A stretch of DNA of 45,668 nucleotides from a virus: positions 1 to 45,668 of the IMG/VR virus record IMGVR_UViG_3300036792_000249; one strand, written 5' to 3'. Below are positions 1 to 45,668 of the stretch, piece by piece (position 1 is the stretch's first letter; every line of letters starts with the position of its first letter). The notes beneath the pieces were generated by a model. It had not been told where the DNA came from. It saw only the letters and a list, made by a program, of their open reading frames with translations, and ran no database searches. The position numbers and the translations under genes are program-made.

Positions 1-165
1 TAGCCGTAGCCGTCGCCGTCGCCGTCGCCGTAGCCGTAGCCGTCGCCGTAGCCGTAGCCGTAGCCGTAGCCGTCGCCGTCGCCGTCGCCGTAGCCGTCGC
101 CGTCGCCGTCGCCGTAGCCGTAGCCGTCGCCGTCGCCGTAGCGACCGAAGGTCGTCTGGCTATTT
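1..165. repeat. Left copy of terminal direct repeat
   Basis: Positions 1-165 match 45504-45668 with a single difference (A at 38, C at 45541). The stretch 39-165 is exact for 127 bp. Most of it is a GCCGT(A/C) tract followed by a short unique part. This indicates a circular or circularly permuted genome assembled with an overlap, or real short terminal repeats. The exact overlap of 127 bp equals a common assembler k-mer size, which favours a circular assembly. Confidence 0.9.
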
Positions 166-6750: not shown

Positions 6751-7149
6751 TTATTCCTCAATTTCCGCCGCTTCTTGGTAGAGCTCACCAAGAAAGTCAT
6801 GCAATTTATTAGTTAATTTTTCAACCTGGCGATATGTGCGCTCGGCCGTCCGACTGTCTGAATCATAGCCATATTCACCGGCCCAATCTTCAAAGTCGCG
6901 GGCGTTGTGGTAGCCCTCGGCGTCCTGAACCAGAGACCAAAGAACCTCGCTTGCTTTGGGGCGATGGGTGAGAGCTGACCCCATGTGATACTCGGTAGTA
7001 AGCATTTTGTGACCGGGGCGGGAGAGTGTCACCATGTAGTGATGGCCGCCCGGGTAGTCCTTGGCGTCCTCACTAGTTGGCGCCGCCTCGATGCTCTTGG
7101 CGGTGATATCGTGAACCTTGCAGAAGTCGGCGAACGTTGCTGTTTTCAT
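6751..7149 (-). CDS. Conserved phage early protein of unknown function (132 aa)
   Basis: This is the first gene of the leftward operon. It follows a pattern seen in many phages: TFADFCKVHDITAKSIE at the start, a YMVTLSRPGHKMLTTEYHMGS beta region, then EVLWSLVQDAEG and FEDWAGEYGYDSDSRTAERTY before a helical end. I know the family only as a hypothetical phage protein. AAGGATATCC sits before the ATG, and the -10 box is 15 bp upstream. Confidence 0.8.
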   Translation of the reverse strand: MKTATFADFCKVHDITAKSIEAAPTSEDAKDYPGGHHYMVTLSRPGHKMLTTEYHMGSALTHRPKASEVLWSLVQDAEGYHNARDFEDWAGEYGYDSDSRTAERTYRQVEKLTNKLHDFLGELYQEAAEIEE

Positions 7150-7163
7150 TGTGGGATATCCTT

Positions 7164-7193
7164 ATTATAACGTTATAGTGGGTTAATGCTCAA
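7164..7193 (-). promoter_or_regulatory. Main leftward early promoter
   Basis: On the minus strand TTGAGC (7193-7188) and a consensus TATAAT (7169-7164) are separated by 18 bp. The perfect 12-bp palindrome at 7166-7177 overlaps the -10 and spacer, placing a likely operator directly on this promoter. Confidence 0.75.
7166..7177. promoter_or_regulatory. Palindromic operator-like site TATAACGTTATA
   Basis: A perfect 12-bp palindrome overlapping the early leftward promoter. Related copies occur at 7567-7578 (ten central bases), 8004-8015 and 9330-9341 (one base changed) and 12739-12750 (exact). Confidence 0.6.
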
Positions 7194-7575
7194 TGAGCAA
7201 TGCCAGCGTTGAGAAATGGCCCGTGCTATGTACATCTTGCTTGCTCCCTATAAATCTCAATGCTGACACCGCCCATTGATTTGAGTGGTGCGCCCGCGTG
7301 GCCGTATTTTCCCAACGGAATGAGGCGGGCGATATGACGACCTAAGCTATGAGAGCGCACTTTTCGATTGGCTCACCTTGGCGCATTGATGATGGGGCCG
7401 AGGTGTTAAGCTCATTTCTATTCTGTGTCACCATTTACGGCGGCGGTCTGATTTTCAAGGTGTGCGGGGTTTTGTCCGGGAGAGCGAATGGCCTATGCTT
7501 GTGATGTGCCTTGCTTTCCGAACTGAGTCCATCTTCTCACACATTTATTTATTTGTAAAGAGTTTTTATAACGTT

Positions 7576-7947
7576 ATGGTATTAATACCCACAAAGAGGA
7601 TATCCACCAAGCGCTATGCGCGGGCGTTGAGGCGTCACCAAACCGATGCCGAGCGGGCGCTATGGTGTCTCCTATTTATTGGATACCTACCACAAAGAGC
7701 GGTACATGGGTTTGTGCCTGATTTCTACAGTCCTATTTTTTGTGTCACCATTGAGGTGCAAGGGAGTGTGCACAAACTTCGGGACGTGAAGCGGCGGGAC
7801 AAAACCAAACGCCAAGCACTGCGGGCGCGGGGAGTGTACACAATTTATGTCTCAAACACCTATGCCCTAAAAGCACCAATCATCGTCATGGCCGAGGCGT
7901 TAATCACTGGCATTATTTGGAGGCTGTGGATAATGGTACGGCTCTAG
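7576..7947 (+). CDS. DUF559 / Vsr-like endonuclease-family protein (123 aa)
   Basis: The product carries the DUF559 signature: an RRHQTDAERALWCLL helix, then a VHGFVPDFYSPIFCVTIEVQG strand pair in which D, E and Q would make the Vsr/PD-(D/E)XK-type active site, and a C-terminal GVYTIYVSNTYAL strand. Typical members have E-V-D-G where this one has E-V-Q-G. The family is nuclease-like but its role in phages is not settled. The ATG at 7576 overlaps an operator-like palindrome and has no good ribosome site, so the start is uncertain (frame open to 7462). The gene stands alone between divergent modules. Confidence 0.7.
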   Translation: MVLIPTKRISTKRYARALRRHQTDAERALWCLLFIGYLPQRAVHGFVPDFYSPIFCVTIEVQGSVHKLRDVKRRDKTKRQALRARGVYTIYVSNTYALKAPIIVMAEALITGIIWRLWIMVRL

Positions 7948-8331
7948 CCCGTCTCTCGCTTTTTGGGTAATCGCTCAAGCCAGTCCATCGCCTGACCCTG
8001 AGCTATTACGTTATAGCTAAATAAGCCAGTGGGCTAACGATGTATTACGATTATCTATTTATACCTATGCTAAGCCATATTTATTTTTACGAAAAGCAAC
8101 GCGGGCGATAAGACAAGCTCTATGTCATTCCAGTGCTATAGAGAGTGGACCAGTTAATACATTCAAATGCACTAGTAAGTCCATCTGTTTATTTATTGGC
8201 TAGCCTGAGCCTAAATTGTTGGACCAGTTTGAGCACGCGCGGGGCGATGTGGGTGGTTTAATCCAATAACCAATATACCTATACGTCCGCAGTGCCGCAG
8301 GCCGCCCAGTGGTCTCGTTTTGTGTCACAAA
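7948..8331. other. AT-rich intergenic control region
   Basis: There is no gene in this ~380-bp stretch. It holds the operator-like TATTACGTTATA (8004-8015), an AT-rich block (8040-8100), a direct repeat TGGACCAGTT (8148-8157 and 8221-8230), and a TGTGTCAC copy at its right edge. As the AT-rich space next to the rightward module it is a possible origin of replication, but no known initiator sites are visible. Confidence 0.4.
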
Positions 8332-8361
8332 TTGCTCTTGATGTCACCAGGTGTGTATAAT
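8332..8361 (+). promoter_or_regulatory. Rightward promoter before the HTH gene
   Basis: TTGCTC (8332-8337) and TATAAT (8356-8361) are separated by 18 bp. TGTGTCACA (8321) and ATGTCACCA (8341) flank and overlap the -35/spacer, so binding to these motifs would affect this promoter. The leader to the ATG at 8386 is about 18 nt and has no clear Shine-Dalgarno sequence. Confidence 0.65.
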
Positions 8362-8385
8362 CATAAGCAATTAAGCGTAACGTTT

Positions 8386-8997
8386 ATGAGTAACACCGAC
8401 CTTGCAACCCTGATTGCACCTGACCTAGCCAGTGCCCAGCCTCGAAATGGCGTGGGAAGTCCTATTGATGATGAGACGAAGATGGAAGCTATTGTGTCTG
8501 TCGCTGAGCTCATGGAAAAAGGTACGCGCTCAACTGCCGCCATTCAAGAGCACCTAGCCAAGGTGTATCACCTGACCTCACGACCTACGGCTATCAAATA
8601 CCGCAATTTGGCCGCTGCTTTGATTGCTCATGAACACAAACCCATGAACCGCGAGAATATCCGGGCGCTGGAGATTGGCCGTATCACCTATTGGCTTGAA
8701 CGTGTCACCAAACGCATCGAGGAGTTTGAGGAGGACAGACCCACCAAGGACGATGATGACTATTTCAAGTGGCACGACTCCTACGCTAAATTGCTGGGCA
8801 AGTTCAATGACCTAGGGGCGCGGCTTCACGCTATCACCGGCCTAAATGAGCTCACTATTAACAATAACGACCAGCCTAAACGGGTCATATTCATCAGACC
8901 TGGTGACACAATGCCTAAGTCGCACAATGTGTCACCAGATAGCCAAGTGAGTGAGTTGATTGAGGGCGAGGTGTCTGGGCCTGGTGTCACTACCTGA
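8386..8997 (+). CDS. HTH DNA-binding protein, candidate small terminase subunit or regulator (203 aa)
   Basis: Residues about 40-75 (STAAIQEHLAKVYHLTSRPT) form a likely helix-turn-helix. A charged, probably coiled-coil region follows (ITYWLERVTKRIEEFEED) and then a C-terminal strand PKRVIFIRPGDTM. HTH domain, oligomerisation helices and short beta tail is the layout of phage small terminase subunits, which bind packaging sites often located in or near their own gene. Four copies of GTGTCACC-type repeats lie in this gene and many around it, which fits either packaging-site recognition or an autoregulating repressor. The start MSNTDLATL is chosen because it follows the promoter; the frame is open upstream to 8320. 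Confidence 0.55.
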   Translation: MSNTDLATLIAPDLASAQPRNGVGSPIDDETKMEAIVSVAELMEKGTRSTAAIQEHLAKVYHLTSRPTAIKYRNLAAALIAHEHKPMNRENIRALEIGRITYWLERVTKRIEEFEEDRPTKDDDDYFKWHDSYAKLLGKFNDLGARLHAITGLNELTINNNDQPKRVIFIRPGDTMPKSHNVSPDSQVSELIEGEVSGPGVTT

Positions 8998-9545
8998 CCT
9001 AGTGTGCTGCCCACTCATTATATGTATCACCCTATATGCACGACGATGGGGCGAGGACTGGCCGATGTTTTGGACGCAAAAGGCCTAACCCTGCGGGTCC
9101 CATCAGGTTCGCTTGACCACTGACGCCGTATGGAACCAAGTATAGTGTCTAAGCCCACGCTCCAGTCGCAAGCACCCATCAAAACTTTCCGGTGTCACCA
9201 TAGACCAGGCCTGTAGGAATGGGGGTCTCGCGTCGGGCCATAGCCGGCGAAGCCGGCATATAGGACAGGGGCGCCTACACCTCGCCGCCGGCCCAGAAAA
9301 TAAAATGGGGGTGGCTGGGAAGCTGGCACTATAACGTAATAGTTGAGCTTTGGCAGTGGGGCGCGGGCACATTCCGGTGGTCTTGGCGGGCTCGGCCTGT
9401 GCCGGTCGCGTCGCACCTATATGCCTGGGCCTCGCCCGCGGTGACACAAAAACGGCCCGTATGCGCTGCAAGGGGCTCCAAAAAAAATTTCGCGCGGCGC
9501 AAACGCCAAGATACCTATGTATGCGTGCCGGCGTAGTTTGCTCGG
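8998..9545. other. Intergenic region without a supported gene
   Basis: About 550 bp with no convincing coding frame on either strand. It contains TGTATCACC (9024), GTGTCACCA (9192), a complementary copy (9439), the palindromic TATAACGTAATA (9330-9341) and a small GCCGGC hairpin (9243-9257). It follows the putative small terminase gene and may include the packaging or regulatory site. Confidence 0.4.
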
Positions 9546-9716
9546 TTAAACGTTGAGAGAGGAGATGCGCTCAGCCCGGGCTACGGTCTCGTTGGCCGTT
9601 TTCGCCATGGCATTAAAAAGGCCGGGGCGGATTGCCACGGCGACGCGCTTACTACTACTACCATTAACCCGAACCTTGTAGGCTCGCGGGTTTTTGGGGT
9701 TTGGTAGCTGATTCAT
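9546..9716 (-). CDS. Leaderless 56-aa basic protein
   Basis: Minus-strand frame from ATG 9716 to TAA 9546. It starts MNQLPNPKNPRAYKVRVNGS, followed by KRVAVAIRPGLFNAMAKTAN and a helical end. It is basic and small, as expected of a nucleic-acid-binding regulator, but I recognise no family. A near-consensus promoter ends 7 nt before the ATG and there is no ribosome site, so the mRNA would be leaderless, as for some phage repressors. It is transcribed against the rightward genes from inside the control region. Confidence 0.68.
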   Translation of the reverse strand: MNQLPNPKNPRAYKVRVNGSSSKRVAVAIRPGLFNAMAKTANETVARAERISSLNV

Positions 9717-9723
9717 AATTATG

Positions 9724-9753
9724 ATTATGAGGCGTCTGGATATCCGCCGTCAA
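9724..9753 (-). promoter_or_regulatory. Strong leftward promoter, leaderless start
   Basis: TTGACG (9753-9748) and CATAAT (9729-9724) on the minus strand with an 18-bp spacer, which contains GGATATCC. The expected start point falls at or next to the A of the ATG at 9716. Confidence 0.72.
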
Positions 9754-9815
9754 TAGGCTTATGCTAAAGGGGTAAATTTGGAGAGTACAATGCCTCAAAG
9801 AAAAGGAACTATCGT

Positions 9816-9995
9816 ATGGGCCCAATGACACCTCCCGGCGCCAATACTAACTCTGCCGCCCCCGCCCTCAAAAAGGCCTACCAGACCGCCTCGCGCAAGA
9901 AGAAAAAAGACCCCAACGCGGTCGACCAGGGCGCCGTTCGAATGATGCAGCGCAAGGTTGCTGGCGGCCCACCTGCAGGCCCGGGTCAATATTAG
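9816..9995 (+). CDS. Small basic hypothetical protein (59 aa)
   Basis: A short frame with AAAAGGA about 7 nt before the ATG. The protein is rich in Ala, Lys and Pro (MGPMTPPGANTNSAAPALKK, then SRKKKKDP), with no recognised fold. It ends 2 bp before the next gene's start, so the two form a pair. A TACAAT at 9786-9791 may be its -10 box, but no -35 is clear. Confidence 0.6.
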   Translation: MGPMTPPGANTNSAAPALKKAYQTASRKKKKDPNAVDQGAVRMMQRKVAGGPPAGPGQY

Positions 9996-9997
9996 GC

Positions 9998-10264
9998 ATG
10001 AAAGTCCGCGCCTGCTGCAATAACTGCGGGTTTACCGGCGACCACGACCTCCCCTACCGGGCGAAAATCGCCTCGGCCATGATTGATTCCGACACCCGCA
10101 CCACCTCCCAGGAGTCGTCGTTTACGACCGACGGTGGCAAGGAGGTGCCATTTTTGTGCACGAATTGCGGTCGCCCCGACCTCGAGGTGATTTATTGGGG
10201 CGACGGCCCGGGCAAAAAGGCGCCGTTCATTGGTGAGGAATTGCACCGGCTTATTGACGGTTGA
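9998..10264 (+). CDS. Zinc-ribbon protein (88 aa)
   Basis: CCNNCGFTGDHD near the N-terminus and LCTNCGRPDLEVIYWG near residue 55 form two C-x2-C knuckles of one zinc ribbon, with a mixed linker containing several Thr and Ser. Such proteins are common in phages and usually of unknown role. The gene follows the 59-aa gene by 2 bp. Confidence 0.68.
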   Translation: MKVRACCNNCGFTGDHDLPYRAKIASAMIDSDTRTTSQESSFTTDGGKEVPFLCTNCGRPDLEVIYWGDGPGKKAPFIGEELHRLIDG

Positions 10265-10722
10265 CCCCCGCCCGCGCCATAATTAACCATGAGAGAAATG
10301 TCGCCGTAGACCTCCGCTTGCGGAGTGCCGGATAGGGATTGTTACGGTTCCCACTGGCCTCTCCGCTCCTAACGGGGTGGCCATAGCTAGTGGCCCGGAG
10401 TCACGTTTTCGAAACCGCTGGGCGGTAAGTAGAAATCCTGGCAATGATGGGCCGACGGTAATACTAGTGAACCACCGGGGCCGTACACCCCAACGCCCGC
10501 CGAATAACCGCGGCGGGTTTGGCATTTTGTGGTGGGACGACGGTTGTTTCGACCCAACCCGGGGCGTGCGGTTACTCATGCCGCGCCCGCTACCTCACTT
10601 AGTCTGTATCACCAATTTATTCGCTTTGTATACATATTTTATTCAGGTGACACATGTACAAAAGGGCTTGTGTCACCATTCTTTTTGTGCTAATGTGACA
10701 CCAGTAAAAAGGACAGCACAAA
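10265..10722. other. GC-rich, structured intergenic region
   Basis: About 460 bp without a supported gene. Several hairpins can be drawn: CTCCGC/GCGGAG near 10311-10325, CCACTGGCC with GGCC...AGTGG around 10350-10395, GTTT/AAAC at 10405-10415, and CCCGCCG/CGGCGGG near 10496-10517. I find no tRNA or known RNA signature. The right end carries four GTGTCACC-type motifs and a weak promoter (TTGTGT, 17 bp, TAATGT at 10668-10696) for the next operon. Confidence 0.45.
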
Positions 10723-12606: not shown

Positions 12607-12769
12607 AATCATGTTGCTTGGGCTACTCATTACCACTTTCCTATTGGCCCTCGGGCTGCCTGTCATGTACGAGCTCAAGCTCATTCACTACCTCGCATGG
12701 TTCCTCGAACCCATCGCTATCGGACTGTGCCTTAAAGCTATAACGTTATACCGGAGAGCAAAATGGTAG
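12578..12769 (+). CDS. Two-span small membrane protein (63 aa)
   Basis: From ATG 12578 the product has a basic start (MKSLERLVNK) and two hydrophobic helices (IMLLGLLITTFLLALGLPVM and LAWFLEPIAIGLCLKAITL) with a basic end. A start at 12611 is also possible. The exact palindrome TATAACGTTATA lies at its 3' end (12739-12750), just upstream of the J-domain gene. Confidence 0.6.
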   Translation: MKSLERLVNKIMLLGLLITTFLLALGLPVMYELKLIHYLAWFLEPIAIGLCLKAITLYRRAKW

Positions 12770-21565: not shown

Positions 21566-22846
21566 ATGGCTTTCCAAGCCTCAACAGCCACCGTCAACGC
21601 GGTACTCAAGACCGTCTACCCCGGCACGATTGGTGAACAGCTTAACAACGAAGTCGGCCCTTGGGCTGTCATGGAGCCCAAACTTGTGCGGGCTGCCCAG
21701 GGTAAGGGTTTCACCCGCGCTCTGCACGTTGGCCGTAACCAGTCCATTGCCGCGCGGTCAGACTTGCAGCGCCTACCCGGCGCCGGCGTGCAACGTTCAG
21801 TAAACGCAACCATCAACCTAGCGCGTAACTATATCATCGGTCAGTTCACCGGCGGTATCGTGCGCGACTCCTATGATGACAAGGCCGCGTTTGTGAACGT
21901 TATGTACGACGAAATGACGCGCTCACTTACTGACTTCACCAACGACCTTGCCCGCCAGGTGGCCACCGGCCACGCCCGGCTTGCAAAGTTGACTGGTGCG
22001 GCCGCAGGTGTGACCGTCTTGACCGTCGACTCCGTTCTCAACCTGGGCATCAACCAGCGCATTCAAATCTTTAACGGTGCCACCGAGCAGTCGACTCCGG
22101 TGTACTCCATCGCCAACGACACAGGTGGTGCCCTCATCACCAACGTCGACCGCGTGAACAGCCAGATTACGGTGGACTCGGCGCAGACCGCCAGCTCCGG
22201 CGCGTTTATTTATCGGGCGGGCAACTTCGATGGTACGAACGTTGCGGAAACGCAAGGTCTCAAGACCATGATTGCCAACACGGGTACATACTTCGGTATC
22301 AACCGTGCGACCGTGCCCGAGGTGCAGGCCAACGTGTACGACATGGTGAACACCACCACCACGCCGGACAACCTCTTTGAGGACGCCCTGCAAGCCGGTG
22401 AGGACTTGGTGACGATTTGGGGTGGTGACGTTGTAGACCTCTGGTACTACGACTTTGTTACCCGCCGCCGCTACTTGCGCCAGCTCCAAGCTTTGCGCCA
22501 GTACGTCGTCAGCTCGGGCCAGTCGACTCCATCGTTCTCCGGTGGTGCCGCGAGTTCCAAGGACTTCCAGAAAGGTCTGTCAGGCGCCGTGACGTTTAAC
22601 AACGCTCCGGTAATCGCCAGCCGTCGTATTGATGCTAAAACCATCTACGGCCTCAAGACGGACACCTGGGAGGGCTACAAGGCCTCCGAGATTGAGTGGG
22701 TGCCGAATGGTGACGGCACGGGCGGGGTGCTCCACCCATTACTCGCCGCTCAAGGTCTGGACGCGTTTATGTTCGCCTGCAACTTCGATTCGCAGCCGTA
22801 CTGCAACATGCCGTCCAAGAACGTTACGCTAATCAACACCAACTAG
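21566..22846 (+). CDS. Major capsid protein (426 aa)
   Basis: Placed right after the scaffold with its own ribosome site. The sequence has the features of a phage coat: an N-terminal arm with VLKTVYPGTIGEQLNNEVGP, a helix-and-loop region with DSYDDKAAFVNVMYDEMTRS, an inserted beta-rich segment around residues 150-230 (AGVTVLTVDSVLNLGINQRI), and a C-terminal domain ending in YCNMPSKNVTLINTN. I assign it to the HK97-fold coat proteins by position and composition. Confidence 0.85.
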   Translation: MAFQASTATVNAVLKTVYPGTIGEQLNNEVGPWAVMEPKLVRAAQGKGFTRALHVGRNQSIAARSDLQRLPGAGVQRSVNATINLARNYIIGQFTGGIVRDSYDDKAAFVNVMYDEMTRSLTDFTNDLARQVATGHARLAKLTGAAAGVTVLTVDSVLNLGINQRIQIFNGATEQSTPVYSIANDTGGALITNVDRVNSQITVDSAQTASSGAFIYRAGNFDGTNVAETQGLKTMIANTGTYFGINRATVPEVQANVYDMVNTTTTPDNLFEDALQAGEDLVTIWGGDVVDLWYYDFVTRRRYLRQLQALRQYVVSSGQSTPSFSGGAASSKDFQKGLSGAVTFNNAPVIASRRIDAKTIYGLKTDTWEGYKASEIEWVPNGDGTGGVLHPLLAAQGLDAFMFACNFDSQPYCNMPSKNVTLINTN

Positions 22847-23265: not shown

Positions 23266-23702
23266 AACGACCTCTCCCAATCAATCCCTACGAGTTTCAG
23301 GAGCGCATTAACGCGTATGCCTCCGATATTGTCATTTTGTGGGACACGACGATTGAGAGATACCAAATTTACCAGACCGTCGAGGCAATCCCGGGCTTTA
23401 CGGTACACGGCATGTCAGCCATGCAGGCGCGCAAGCAGAAGCTCCGCCCCATGTTCACTATCCAAGAGGCTAATGGCGACTTCCGTGACCCGGACGAATC
23501 GGACTTGCAGCGCATCATCGACAGCATCAATAACACGATAAATATGCGTGTCAAGGGCTACCAGCACTTTGCCGACGTCATGGAGAAAGAGGATATTGCC
23601 CGCGAGGAAGCGGTGGCGCCGGGGGTGCAAGACGCAATGCGCTGGGGTGCCGAGGAAATTCATAAAGCCCGCGTTCGCAAGGGCATTTTGGGTATGATGT
23701 AA
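23262..23702 (+). CDS. Conserved virion-region protein (146 aa, GTG start)
   Basis: A mixed alpha/beta protein (IVILWDTTIERYQIYQTVEA, then a helical C-terminus). No function motif is visible. It lies between the coat and head-tail adaptor genes, with start coupled to the previous stop (GTGA). Confidence 0.65.
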   Translation: MKRPLPINPYEFQERINAYASDIVILWDTTIERYQIYQTVEAIPGFTVHGMSAMQARKQKLRPMFTIQEANGDFRDPDESDLQRIIDSINNTINMRVKGYQHFADVMEKEDIAREEAVAPGVQDAMRWGAEEIHKARVRKGILGMM

Positions 23703-41651: not shown

Positions 41652-41863
41652 ATTGGAACGACGTACATTTTTGGGATTTGACCGTGGCTAACGCAATCGT
41701 CCTGTGGAAAATTTTGCGCGTCGCTCCCGGTCTCATTGCCCGCGCCCTGCCGCCGCTCCTCAAGTTCGTCGCCTCGAGCACTGGCAAATACGCGATAAAC
41801 GACTACCTCGATAAAAAATACCCCAAAAAGGTGCGTAAAAATGGCCGTAGCTCAAGTAACTGA
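41639..41863 (+). CDS. Hypothetical protein (74 aa)
   Basis: MANINWNDVHFWDLTVANAI starts after overlapping the previous stop by 13 bp. It has a hydrophobic or amphipathic middle (VLWKILRVAPGLIARALPPL) and a basic end. It overlaps the resolvase start by 23 bp. No family was recognised. Confidence 0.6.
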   Translation: MANINWNDVHFWDLTVANAIVLWKILRVAPGLIARALPPLLKFVASSTGKYAINDYLDKKYPKKVRKNGRSSSN

Positions 41864-42233
41864 GATTGTCATTTCGTTCACCGACGCCGGCCTGCCGCCC
41901 GGCCTCAATCAAACCAAGGGGCACCATTGGGGTGCCACCACGGGCGAGCGCAAAAAATGGCGTGAGTTGGCGTGTGCCCGGGCCTTGGAGGTCAACCTAC
42001 GGGTGCCACCCACACACCGGGCGCTGGTGCACTGGCACGTTTTCCTCGGCTCTCGCCGCGCGCGCGATGAGGACAATCTGCGTGGTGGTATGAAGCCCGT
42101 GCAGGACGGATTGGTCGACGCCGGCGTCATTCGCGGTGACTCCGTGTGGGACATTGAAACCAAGTACACATTTAGCCCCGACGGGCCGCCCGGATTCATC
42201 ATAGTAGTATCGGAATTAGACCAAGACCGCTAA
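41841..42233 (+). CDS. rusA: RusA-family Holliday junction resolvase (130 aa)
   Basis: The RusA pattern is clear: a beta start (VTEIVISFTDAGLPPGLNQT), WHVFLGSRRARDEDNLRGGM with the catalytic D-x-D-N, then KPVQDGLVDAGVIRGDS with further acidic residues, and a final strand. RusA dimers cut four-way junctions, which helps recombination and prepares branched DNA for packaging. It is in a different operon from erf and the exonuclease. Confidence 0.85.
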   Translation: MAVAQVTEIVISFTDAGLPPGLNQTKGHHWGATTGERKKWRELACARALEVNLRVPPTHRALVHWHVFLGSRRARDEDNLRGGMKPVQDGLVDAGVIRGDSVWDIETKYTFSPDGPPGFIIVVSELDQDR

Positions 42234-42825: not shown

Positions 42826-44457
42826 CTAGCGGGGCATGACGGGGGACGGGGGCAGGTCGGCCGGGATATCGACCACCAGCGGGCCCATCGTCATTGCCGT
42901 GCCCGCGATGGAGACGGCGTTTTCGACGGCCTCTTTCGTGACCTTGGAGGGGTCAACGATGCCGGCTTTCTTGAGGTCGACTAGCTTTTCAGGGTCGTAG
43001 ACCGAGAAGCCCCAGCCGAACTTTTTGGACTTTCGCACCTCGGCTCGCATGGATTTACCCTCGTGGCCGGAGTTGTCCATGAGCTGCACAAACGGCTGCT
43101 CGAGGGCATTGAGCAAAATGGTCTCGCCTGGCTCGCCGGTTTTATCCGGGCCGGTCGAGTACTCATCGACCAAGTTGAGGAGAGTGACGCCTCCGCCGGG
43201 CACGATGCCCTGGGCGATTGCAGCTTTTGTCGCAAATACCGCGTCGTCCACGCGAAACTTGCGCTCCTCAATTGCGGTTTCACTGACACCACCAACCTTG
43301 ATGATGGCGACTTTTCCGCTCAATGCAGCCGCGCGCTCCTCAAGTTTCTCCTTGTTGAACTCGGAGTCGGCCTTTTCGGCGCGGTCTTTGAGTGAGTCAA
43401 TCCGGCCTTGGATATCCTCTTTGTCGCCGCCGCCCTCCACGATAACCGTGCTGTCGCGGTCGGCAATGACGGTGTGGGCGTAGCCGAGCATGTCGGGGGT
43501 AGCTTCCGAGAGCTCCATACCTTGCTCGCGGGAAATTACCTTGGCGCCGACGAGAGTGGCGATGTCCTCAAGCATTTCCTTGCGGCGGTCGCCGAATGCG
43601 GGGGCTTTGATGGCGAACGTGGCGTAGGCGCCGGAGAGCTTGTTTTTAACCAGCGTTTCCAGGGCGTCGCCGTCCATGTCCTCACAAATTACAACGATTT
43701 TCTTGTCGCCCTTGAGCTGCGCCAGCTTCTCGAGAATCGGGATTATCTCGGCAACGTTGGAAATGCGTTGGTCAGTCACCAGGACTCTCACATTTTCGAC
43801 CACCGCCCGCATTCGCTTGTTGTCCGTCACCATGTACGGAGTGACGAGGCCGCGGTCAAATTTGTAGCCGTCGACGATTTCGTGGGTGAGCTGGGTGCCC
43901 TGGGATTGCTCCACTGTCACCGAGCCGTCGCCGCCCACCTGCTTCATCACCTCGCTAATGATGTCGGCGATTTCTTTGTCGCCGCCGGCAGAAATGAGGG
44001 CCACTTCGTGCACTTTGGCGGGGTTGTCGTCGATTTTCTCGATGTACTTGGGTAGATATCCCATAACCCGTTCCTTGGCCGCGTCGAGCTGACGCTTGAG
44101 CTGCATGGGGTTGTGGCCGGCGGCGATGAGCTTGTTGGCCTCATTGAGCAAGTGGTAGGCGAGCACGGTAACGGTGGTGGTACCGTCGCCAACGATGTCG
44201 TTGACCTTGCCGGCCGCCAGCCGCATGAGGTCGGCGCCGGTGACTTCGCCCAAGTGCTCATCGTTCTTGTGGGGCAGGTCAATGGAGCGGGCGATGGTTA
44301 CGCCGTCGTGAGTGGCGACGGGGAGTTGGTATTGCGTGTGAATGAGGGTGTTACGCCCCAGCGGGCCCAGACTCGAGCGCACGGGCTCATAAATCTGCTT
44401 GGCGCCGCGCAAGATAATCTCGCGCGCTTCGTTGTCAAAAAATACTTTCTTTGGCAT
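42826..44457 (-). CDS. groEL: GroEL-type chaperonin (543 aa)
   Basis: Full-length group I chaperonin. The equatorial ATP site has SSLGPLGRNT (P-loop-like), D51 in THDGVTIARS, GDGTTT at residues 90-95, the VPGGG motif (GIVPGGGVTLLNL) and an aspartate equal to E. coli D398 in FRVDDAVFATKAA. Apical and intermediate regions are present (YKFDRGLVTPYMVTD, KAPAFGDRRKEMLEDIA). It is divergent: typical LGPKGRN is LGPLGRN, and the C-terminus ends PPSPVMPR without the Gly-Gly-Met tail. It should fold phage proteins with the GroES encoded upstream. GAGGAGG precedes the ATG. Confidence 0.97.
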   Translation of the reverse strand: MPKKVFFDNEAREIILRGAKQIYEPVRSSLGPLGRNTLIHTQYQLPVATHDGVTIARSIDLPHKNDEHLGEVTGADLMRLAAGKVNDIVGDGTTTVTVLAYHLLNEANKLIAAGHNPMQLKRQLDAAKERVMGYLPKYIEKIDDNPAKVHEVALISAGGDKEIADIISEVMKQVGGDGSVTVEQSQGTQLTHEIVDGYKFDRGLVTPYMVTDNKRMRAVVENVRVLVTDQRISNVAEIIPILEKLAQLKGDKKIVVICEDMDGDALETLVKNKLSGAYATFAIKAPAFGDRRKEMLEDIATLVGAKVISREQGMELSEATPDMLGYAHTVIADRDSTVIVEGGGDKEDIQGRIDSLKDRAEKADSEFNKEKLEERAAALSGKVAIIKVGGVSETAIEERKFRVDDAVFATKAAIAQGIVPGGGVTLLNLVDEYSTGPDKTGEPGETILLNALEQPFVQLMDNSGHEGKSMRAEVRKSKKFGWGFSVYDPEKLVDLKKAGIVDPSKVTKEAVENAVSIAGTAMTMGPLVVDIPADLPPSPVMPR

Positions 44458-44676
44458 TTATTCGGCCTCCTCAATGTCGAAATGGTCGACCGCGGCCTCG
44501 CGGCCAATTTTATCCAATAATTTGTCCTCGCCGTAAAACGAGATTACGTCGGCGATATCCACGCTGTCGAGAATGTCGTCGGGGTCGACTTCCTCAATCG
44601 CTACCTCTACCTGATTGTAGGTATGTGGTATGACGTTGGCTTTGCCGGCGTTGAAAGTAAGGTCTATCTTGGCCAT
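44458..44676 (-). CDS. Small conserved protein between groES and groEL (72 aa)
   Basis: A beta start (MAKIDLTFNAGKANVIPHTY) and a helical acidic end (ISFYGEDKLLDKIGREAAVD). The pattern of a hydrophobic-acidic helix with YG-x-D-x-L-L-D-x-I-G is seen in many small phage proteins of unknown role. It has no spacing to either chaperonin gene, so it is made together with them and may be a cofactor or substrate. Confidence 0.72.
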   Translation of the reverse strand: MAKIDLTFNAGKANVIPHTYNQVEVAIEEVDPDDILDSVDIADVISFYGEDKLLDKIGREAAVDHFDIEEAE

Positions 44677-44946
44677 TTACTTTTTCTCCACAATCTTAGT
44701 TAATATGGTCTTTTCCTCCATGATGATGAAGTCCACACCATCGAGGGTGTACTCGTTGCGGTTGAACCGCGGCAGTACAACTAAATCGCCCACCTTGAGG
44801 TGCTTAACGTCGGGGCCGATGGCCTCGACAACACCCTCGGAGGGCTGCTCTTTGCTCGAGCGGGCGAGCTCGATGCCGGCAGCGTTTTTGGGCACCGCCG
44901 GCTCTTTAATGACAACTTGTTCGCCCAGGGGCTCAAGTACGCGCAT
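44677..44946 (-). CDS. groES: GroES-type co-chaperonin (89 aa)
   Basis: Starts MRVLEPLGEQVVIKEPAVPK, as GroES does, followed by a mobile loop segment (KNAAGIELARSSKEQPSEGV) where the usual I-V-L is I-E-L. The core GVVEAIGPDVKHLKVGDLVV is then followed by FNRNEYTLDGVDFIIMEEKT. The length is close to bacterial GroES (about 97 aa). It caps the GroEL ring. The order groES, small gene, groEL keeps the normal cistron order with one insertion. The start overlaps the upstream stop as TAATG. Confidence 0.93.
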   Translation of the reverse strand: MRVLEPLGEQVVIKEPAVPKNAAGIELARSSKEQPSEGVVEAIGPDVKHLKVGDLVVLPRFNRNEYTLDGVDFIIMEEKTILTKIVEKK

Positions 44947-45227
44947 TACATGCCTCTTTCTTTATTAGCGATGAGGAGCCGGGCCTTCACCTTGGCGTTC
45001 ATCAGTTTGTTCTTCCAGTAATTTGCGTCCGCGTGGGCCGCCATAAACTCCGAGGAATGCTCGGAGTGGTGGGCGCGCGTGTACGCTTGGATTAGCTCAA
45101 AGTGGAGCTGAATACCGGCCAAGATATCTAACATCTGCTCGATTTCCAGCTCCTCGATAAGCGACGGGTTGTTAAGGTACTCCGCTAAGGCGGTCTCACT
45201 TTGTGCAATTCGTGCCTCCAGTGTCAT
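44946..45227 (-). CDS. Helical hypothetical protein upstream of groES (93 aa)
   Basis: Start MTLEARIAQSETALAEYLNN is set by an ATGA overlap with the 50-aa gene. The protein is almost all helix with several His in the middle (YTRAHHSEHSSEFMAAHADA) and a basic end. No family was recognised. It is co-transcribed with the chaperonin genes. Confidence 0.65.
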   Translation of the reverse strand: MTLEARIAQSETALAEYLNNPSLIEELEIEQMLDILAGIQLHFELIQAYTRAHHSEHSSEFMAAHADANYWKNKLMNAKVKARLLIANKERGM

Positions 45228-45433: not shown

Positions 45434-45668
45434 TTAAAAGCCGTAGCCGTAGCCGTCGCCGTAGCCGTAGCCGTAGCCGTCGCCGTCGCCGTAGCCGTAG
45501 CCGTAGCCGTAGCCGTCGCCGTCGCCGTCGCCGTAGCCGTCGCCGTCGCCGTAGCCGTAGCCGTAGCCGTAGCCGTCGCCGTCGCCGTCGCCGTAGCCGT
45601 CGCCGTCGCCGTCGCCGTAGCCGTAGCCGTCGCCGTCGCCGTAGCGACCGAAGGTCGTCTGGCTATTT
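45434..45668 (-). CDS. (Tyr/Asp)-Gly repeat protein, C-terminal part
   Basis: The minus-strand frame is open from the contig end and encodes only Tyr-Gly and Asp-Gly pairs before Phe and a TAA at 45436-45434. It is the downstream part of the gene that starts at 203. Only TAC, GAC and GGC codons are used, so the tract probably arose by recent slippage. At one position the two contig ends differ by Tyr versus Asp, which suggests variation within the population. A perfect 28-bp palindrome and the next leftward gene follow. Confidence 0.72.
   Translation of the reverse strand, partial: NSQTTFGRYGDGDGYGYGDGDGDGYGDGDGDGYGYGYGYGDGDGYGDGDGDGYGYGYGYGDGDGYGYGYGDGYGYGF
45440..45643. repeat. GCCGT(A/C) hexanucleotide tandem tract
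   Basis: There are 34 consecutive 6-bp units GCCGTA or GCCGTC, with only the last base of the unit varying. Part of the tract is repeated at 2-140 because of the contig overlap. On the minus strand each unit reads as Tyr-Gly or Asp-Gly in an open frame. Gain or loss of units would therefore keep the frame and change only protein length. Confidence 0.95.
45504..45668. repeat. Right copy of terminal direct repeat
   Basis: This is the second copy of the 165-bp end repeat, matching 1-165 apart from C at 45541 versus A at 38. Joining the ends gives a circle of about 45,503 bp, although the repeated tract makes the exact length uncertain. Confidence 0.9.

Follow-up and report, generated by a model that had tools for sequence, protein, structure and literature searches.

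Phages that carry GroEL, GroES or both are already known: some possess both genes (PMC7185714), and GroEL has been reported in viruses of marine and soil origin (PMC5332604, PMC8390657). A further case is an operon in a 45,668-base virus record from IMG/VR, labelled 'linear' and analyzed over its full length (hereafter the window), in which an earlier note, made from the letters alone, had recognized a complete GroES-GroEL pair with a small gene between the two. Pfam and PHROG matches corroborate this recognition and place the pair in a gapless leftward operon. In reading order on the minus strand, this comprises a 93-aa gene (45227-44946), for which Pfam and PHROG searches returned no match, followed by groES (44946-44677), the 72-aa gene (44676-44458) and groEL (44457-42826). 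The stop of the 93-aa gene overlaps the groES start (TAATG), and both flanks of the 72-aa gene are formed by a TAAATG junction, so that it indeed abuts groES and groEL with no gap, as had been stated. Given these junctions, the four genes look translationally coupled. The features of the operon are:

42826..44457, minus strand: groEL, a group I chaperonin of 543 aa (PF00118, phrog_5725), ATP-site residues intact
43645..43647, minus strand: codon of GroEL K271 (E. coli V264) in apical helix I, a GroES mobile-loop contact in E. coli (PMC3514286)
44458..44676, minus strand: 72-aa gene between groES and groEL, of a widespread family of small phage proteins (phrog_18028, E = 3.6e-8), a probable passenger
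44677..44946, minus strand: groES, a co-chaperonin of 89 aa with a short roof segment (PF00166, phrog_3188, AlphaFold model)
44866..44874, minus strand: GroES mobile-loop tripeptide I25-E26-L27 (I-V-L in E. coli), E26 being unique among 120 pairs
44946..45227, minus strand: 93-aa gene just upstream of groES, known from its sequence

The ring protein is full-length, with equatorial, intermediate and apical domains. It scores 217.9 bits against the Pfam Cpn60_TCP1 profile (PF00118; cut-off 34.3), covering profile positions 3-482 of 490, matches the PHROG family 'chaperonin groEL' (phrog_5725) with an E-value of 9e-143, and aligns with solved GroELs over residues 1-542. The ATP-site residues singled out earlier, D51 (E. 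coli D52), GDGTTT (90-95) and an equivalent of D398 (here D405), are all in place, as is the equivalent of D495, and the entire catalytic and nucleotide-site set D52, D87, T89-T91, D398 and D495 (E. coli numbers) is present. The altered LGPLGRN stretch is likewise genuine: the residue corresponding to E. coli K34 is L in the window, where 104 other GroELs have K, R or Q. So is the absence of a Gly-Gly-Met tail, the protein ending in DIPADLPPSPVMPR. Several further changes had escaped the earlier note, namely T30S, K51H, N479S, V264K, R268S, R452V, S463K and V464S (E. coli numbers). T30S, K51H and N479S, which along with K34L lie near the nucleotide site, are in contact with the nucleotide pocket, where they could make ATP turnover slower. 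In the substrate- and lid-binding groove, L237, L259, V263 and N265 are kept, whereas Y199L, F204M, L234I, V264K and R268S are changes; V264K and R268S occur in none of the 104 other GroELs, and two phage GroELs, with no GroES found nearby, have Q at 264. At the ring-ring contacts R452V (0/104 others), S463K, V464S and E434K are changed, whereas E461, K105 and A109 are kept. This GroEL is fast-evolving: at 48 of 531 columns its residue occurs in none of the other 119 sequences, and part of its oddity may accordingly be drift.

The lid is also intact, as had been claimed: the 89-aa GroES scores 54.8 bits against Pfam Cpn10 (PF00166; cut-off 21.1) and matches phrog_3188. Its AlphaFold model, built with 18 sequences, has a mean pLDDT of 86.8 and retrieves GroES/Cpn10 chains (1aon, 4pj1, 1wnr) and T4 gp31 (1g31) from the PDB with Foldseek; gp31 is absent from its PDB sequence matches. 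Confidence is lowest over residues 21-30, in keeping with a mobile loop. Together, the profile score and the model identify a Cpn10 beta-barrel with a mobile loop, whose tripeptide keeps I and L and replaces V26 by E. The roof segment is 14 residues long (E. coli has 23, many Bacteroidota 18), and, like the other lids of its clade, this one has no E. coli-type roof hairpin. The hairpin is common in the GroES family though not required, with many bacterial GroES proteins being shorter and gp31 being devoid of it. We consider the GroES-GroEL pair complete and probably functional.

The genome that carries the operon is small, as the earlier note had it. The two ends of the contig overlap by 165 bp (164/165 identical), including 25 bp of non-repeat sequence:

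1..165, no strand: terminal overlap, left copy, a hexanucleotide repeat plus 25 bp of unique sequence, with a 164/165 match to 45504-45668
45504..45668, no strand: terminal overlap, right copy, matching the left copy

On account of this overlap the contig is very likely circle-closing, and the genome is very likely essentially complete at ~45.5 kb. A hexanucleotide array (GCCGTA/GCCGTC) occupies both contig ends (1-142 and 45439-45645). The plus strand encodes the terminase, a P22-like portal, the major head protein (21566-22846) and further virion genes (Pfam/PHROG), and a leftward cluster contains RusA, an exonuclease, an Erf annealing protein and a phosphoheptose-isomerase-like gene. When the genome is drawn as a circle, this leftward cluster terminates in the groE operon, opposite the point where the rightward virion genes end. 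The record has one GroEL and one GroES, with GC3 values (0.77 for groEL, 0.71 for groES) in line with the remaining genes of the phage.

Other features of this genome deserve separate mention. It possesses two different RusA-like Holliday junction resolvases within 45 kb (827-1444 and 41841-42233), and the phosphoheptose-isomerase-like gene lies in the early cluster at 2344-2730 (phrog_1238, E = 2.6e-19). A ~2.8 kb region (7150-9990) with few convincing genes separates the divergent clusters; on visual inspection, the 161-aa frame at 7462-7947 is similar to a small endonuclease, and a PHROG search with it found no match. The palindrome CTATAACGTTATAG has five near-matches (7165-7178, 7566-7579, 8003-8016, 9329-9342 and 12738-12751) against a chance mean of 0.83, a count of five being reached by no shuffle; four of these fall in the gene-poor stretch that separates the two clusters, and the near-matches look like operator sites. 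Words resembling GTGTCACCA with at most one mismatch number 26 in the window versus ~9 expected, with 18 of the 26 within 7026-10703, and are possible iterons or promoter elements.

Where does this chaperonin come from? The GroELs recovered by single-sequence searches, from phages and bacteria alike, reach 45% identity at best; the bacterial ones are 40-45% identical to the window protein, and none among the 80 best loci of a GTDB scan exceeds 45%. An alignment-based search added the GroEL of locus L148 (51-52% identical), and a motif search L229, its near-copy L230, L231 and L232 (47-52%), and L233 (41%), such that the closest relatives, at 52% identity, are all in other phages. GroES adjoins GroEL in all these loci, preceding it in five and following it in L233, with a spacing of 0-15 nt or a short overlap; a single-sequence scan of viral contigs with the window GroES gave no matches. 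Most of the GroELs of this clade share THDG (with E. coli K51 replaced by H), an insertion near residue 62, a TAMTMG-like end and the lack of a Gly-Gly-Met tail. The L148 phage (G042, 3300025407_000057) closes at ~39.7 kb through a 164-bp end overlap (99.4%) and resembles the window in having an 82-aa GroES directly before a GroEL with the THDG, the insertion near residue 62, YHLLNEANKLIAAGHNPM and TAMTMG.LVVDIP motifs; it differs in having no intervening gene and a hydrophobic I26/L264 pair. No match to the window terminase (TerL) was found in its record, which argues for the chaperonin cassette being present in unrelated small phages.

In a quick IQ-TREE phylogeny with a bacterial sample picked by similarity, the window, L148, L229, L231, L232, L233 and MW202497.1 form a seven-row, phage-only set (SH-aLRT 99) that includes none of the sampled bacteria. 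Without MW202497.1, the exact six rows are weakly supported as a clade (32), since this long-branched row, a circular 42.9-kb record in which no GroES was found next to the GroEL, groups with them. Near identity to a bacterial operon, which had been named at the outset as the sign of an artefact, is not seen in this tree. The nearest bacteria in it are Patescibacteria, on long branches and among rows selected by similarity. In another tree, the AR9 chaperonin and a Pseudomonas jumbo-phage protein lie on very long separate branches. A dN/dS of about 0.10 between the L148 and L229 GroELs points to purifying selection in the clade. The same two loci are 87% identical in GroEL versus 38% in GroES; lids that diverge so much faster than rings may be exchanged, and the pairing may not be strict.

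Comparison with other phage systems qualifies the earlier view that such a pair is unusual in a 45-kb podovirus-like genome. Pairs also occur in the ~39.7-kb L148 phage and in MW202566.1 (38,956 bp), where GroEL is preceded by a Cpn10-like protein that is annotated mhsp60 (HMM E = 8e-6), as well as in podoviruses of 60-72.5 kb, Elemovirus and phi38:1; the claim of rarity is therefore to be toned down. Cellulophaga phi38:1 and Calle_2 (podoviruses of 72.5-73 kb) share with the window the order Cpn10, small gene, GroEL and a charged residue 264 with a polar residue 26; their GroEL is about 32% identical, their middle gene unrelated and the sign at 264 opposite. The Flavobacterium phages of Elemovirus (vB_FspP_elemo, ~60 kb) are likewise podovirus-type with adjoining GroEL and GroES, but their GroEL is 30% identical and precedes GroES without a middle gene. 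T4 gp31 is, like the window GroES, a phage-encoded lid without roof loops (PMC6318259); it works with the host GroEL and has a lengthened mobile loop, whereas the window phage brings its own GroEL and the loop of its lid is not lengthened, so that assignment to the gp31 type was rejected. Phage EL gp146, OBP gp246 and AR9 gp228 are also phage-encoded GroEL-like rings (PMC7185714, PMC9598537), but their identity to GroEL is about 22-25% and they function lid-free; the 40-45% identity to bacterial GroELs and the adjacent groES rule out this lid-independent jumbo-phage type for the window.

The phage's own relatives are instructive in a different way. A TerL search yielded 27 viral loci, and GroEL occurs in none of the records behind them. 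Two of these, G001 (45,939 bp, TerL 59% identical) and G002 (42,328 bp, 60%), are the closest complete relatives, their completeness being shown by exact repeats of 127 bp at the ends; they carry neither groES nor groEL. G025 (43,572 bp, TerL 51%) has a lone short-roofed GroES (23387-23641) between the head protein gene and the next tail-region gene and no GroEL, an absence that applies to the record as sequenced since its ends are a low-complexity short tandem repeat; such a lone lid in the head module resembles the T4 gp31 strategy. Another GroES is present in the fragment G008. Capsid and portal proteins across these TerL-related phages are 35-39% identical. Phages of this type can thus live without either gene, and the lid alone or the full pair can be seen as alternative additions.

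The most distinctive trait of the window pair concerns the contact of lid and ring. In the E. coli complex, the GroES loop tripeptide IVL contacts GroEL L234, L237 and V264 (PMC3514286), by analogy with which residues 26 of GroES and 264 of GroEL (E. coli numbering) would meet in the phage complex. We tabulated these two residues in 120 same-locus GroES-GroEL pairs. An oppositely charged combination (E/K) occurs in the window alone; phi38:1 has T/E, a state shared by its near relative Calle_2, both positions are hydrophobic or aromatic in the other pairs, and position 264 is never K, R or D in the 119 pairs other than the window. As a control for fast evolution, we took the columns that are at least 95% hydrophobic in the other sequences (n = 142 in GroEL, n = 22 in GroES): the window is charged at two of the former (264 and the equivalent of A466) and two of the latter (26 and 41). 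By our own count, made for a pattern that was spotted before the test, opposite charges would fall by chance on one of the three contact residues of each partner with a probability of roughly half a percent, and the coincidence of E26 and K264 is suggestive only.

Taken together, these observations identify a real and complete chaperonin system in a phage, of a kind already known, on a divergent phage-only branch and with an unusual charged interface. We consider it quite probable that the phage encodes a self-contained chaperonin of group I, whose lid and ring prefer each other and which folds the phage's own proteins. The short roof and the E26/K264 charges suggest such a preference over the partners of the host. 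A stronger version, that of an orthogonal chaperonin in which an E26-K264 salt bridge replaces the hydrophobic contact and excludes host lids and rings, possibly with a single ring, is one we entertain only tentatively. What we infer here is the assembly into rings, the privacy of the pairing, the substrate and the timing. The GroEL homologue would form one or more heptameric rings and bind an unfolded phage protein; upon ATP binding the ring would be capped by its own GroES heptamer to give a closed folding chamber, and ATP hydrolysis would release lid and substrate. Phage proteins would thereby be folded independently of the host machine, with the capsid or other virion proteins as the most plausible substrates, although relatives whose capsid protein is similar (35-37% identical) do without either gene.

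Alternatively, the operon might be a spare, host-compatible chaperonin, which adds capacity and mixes freely with the host GroES and GroEL, the charge pair being neutral drift. Both proteins do evolve fast, and most contact residues are kept (L237, L259, V263, N265, I25 and L27); yet charges at hydrophobic columns are as few as 2/142 and 2/22 and still fall on one of the three contacts on each side with opposite signs, and phi38:1 independently combines a polar 26 with a charged 264, which leaves this explanation unlikely. Somewhat better placed, though still the lesser possibility, is a single-ring GroEL that has lost its inter-ring contacts and whose own lid closes a one-ring cycle, a reading that bears on the number of rings alone and is compatible with the self-contained chaperonin we favor. 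Three of the four positions that we take to be altered in the classic single-ring mutant (R452, E461, S463 and V464) differ in the window, as R452V, S463K and V464S with E461 kept, and R452V has no counterpart among the 104 others; but K105 and A109 are retained, and other phage GroELs likewise vary at 461-464. Single-ring phage chaperonins do exist in AR9 and OBP (PMC9598537). As for host contamination or a chimeric assembly, the operon lies near the end of a contig labelled linear, but those ends overlap, phage RusA genes flank it on both sides, its codon usage is that of the phage, and neither the GTDB scan nor the phage-only clade offers a close bacterial source. These observations rule out an artefact, to which we assign a negligible probability.

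The 72-aa gene calls for the same weighing, as it was proposed earlier that it may take part in the system. Its zero-gap, translationally coupled position would befit a third working part, be it an adaptor, a substrate or a regulator of the chaperonin, and phi38:1 and Calle_2 too have a gene, of 90 aa, between Cpn10 and GroEL. However, the middle gene of phi38:1 (gp006) is without homology to it, and the 72-aa gene is missing from the clade loci L148, L229, L230, L231, L232 and L233. Nor is there such an intervening gene in ~75 bacterial pairs or in the remaining phage pairs that we examined, the GroES-GroEL gap being too small for one; the exceptions are phi38:1 and Calle_2 with their unrelated gene, and L224 with a distant, doubtful GroES match 368 nt away. 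Its PHROG matches are to small phage proteins (phrog_18028, E = 3.6e-8; phrog_14049, 3.2e-4; phrog_7311, 2.9e-3), and its homologues in Pseudomonas phage CF63a, Vibrio phage 1.232.O and Aeromonas phage 65 have unrelated neighbors that are not chaperonins. A phrog_18028 search of 41 records gave no matches, its controls giving none either; a four-sequence HMM run over the ORFs of most retrieved loci matched the 72-aa gene itself alone; and a single-sequence scan of viral contigs was empty. Modelled alone with AlphaFold, the protein is poorly predicted (pLDDT 46). The homologues without an adjoining chaperonin, the absence from other clade loci and the unrelated gene of phi38:1 all speak against the earlier proposal, and we regard a third working part as very doubtful; the gene is probably a passenger riding on translational coupling.

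With regard to the self-contained chaperonin that we prefer, the opposite charges at E26 and K264 provide a simple two-residue test of the insulation of a phage chaperonin from that of its host, and the pair could serve as an orthogonal chaperonin for laboratory use. At the same time, the related small phages, two complete without either gene, one with a lid only and the window with both lid and ring, furnish a natural comparison for why some phages bring the whole machine.
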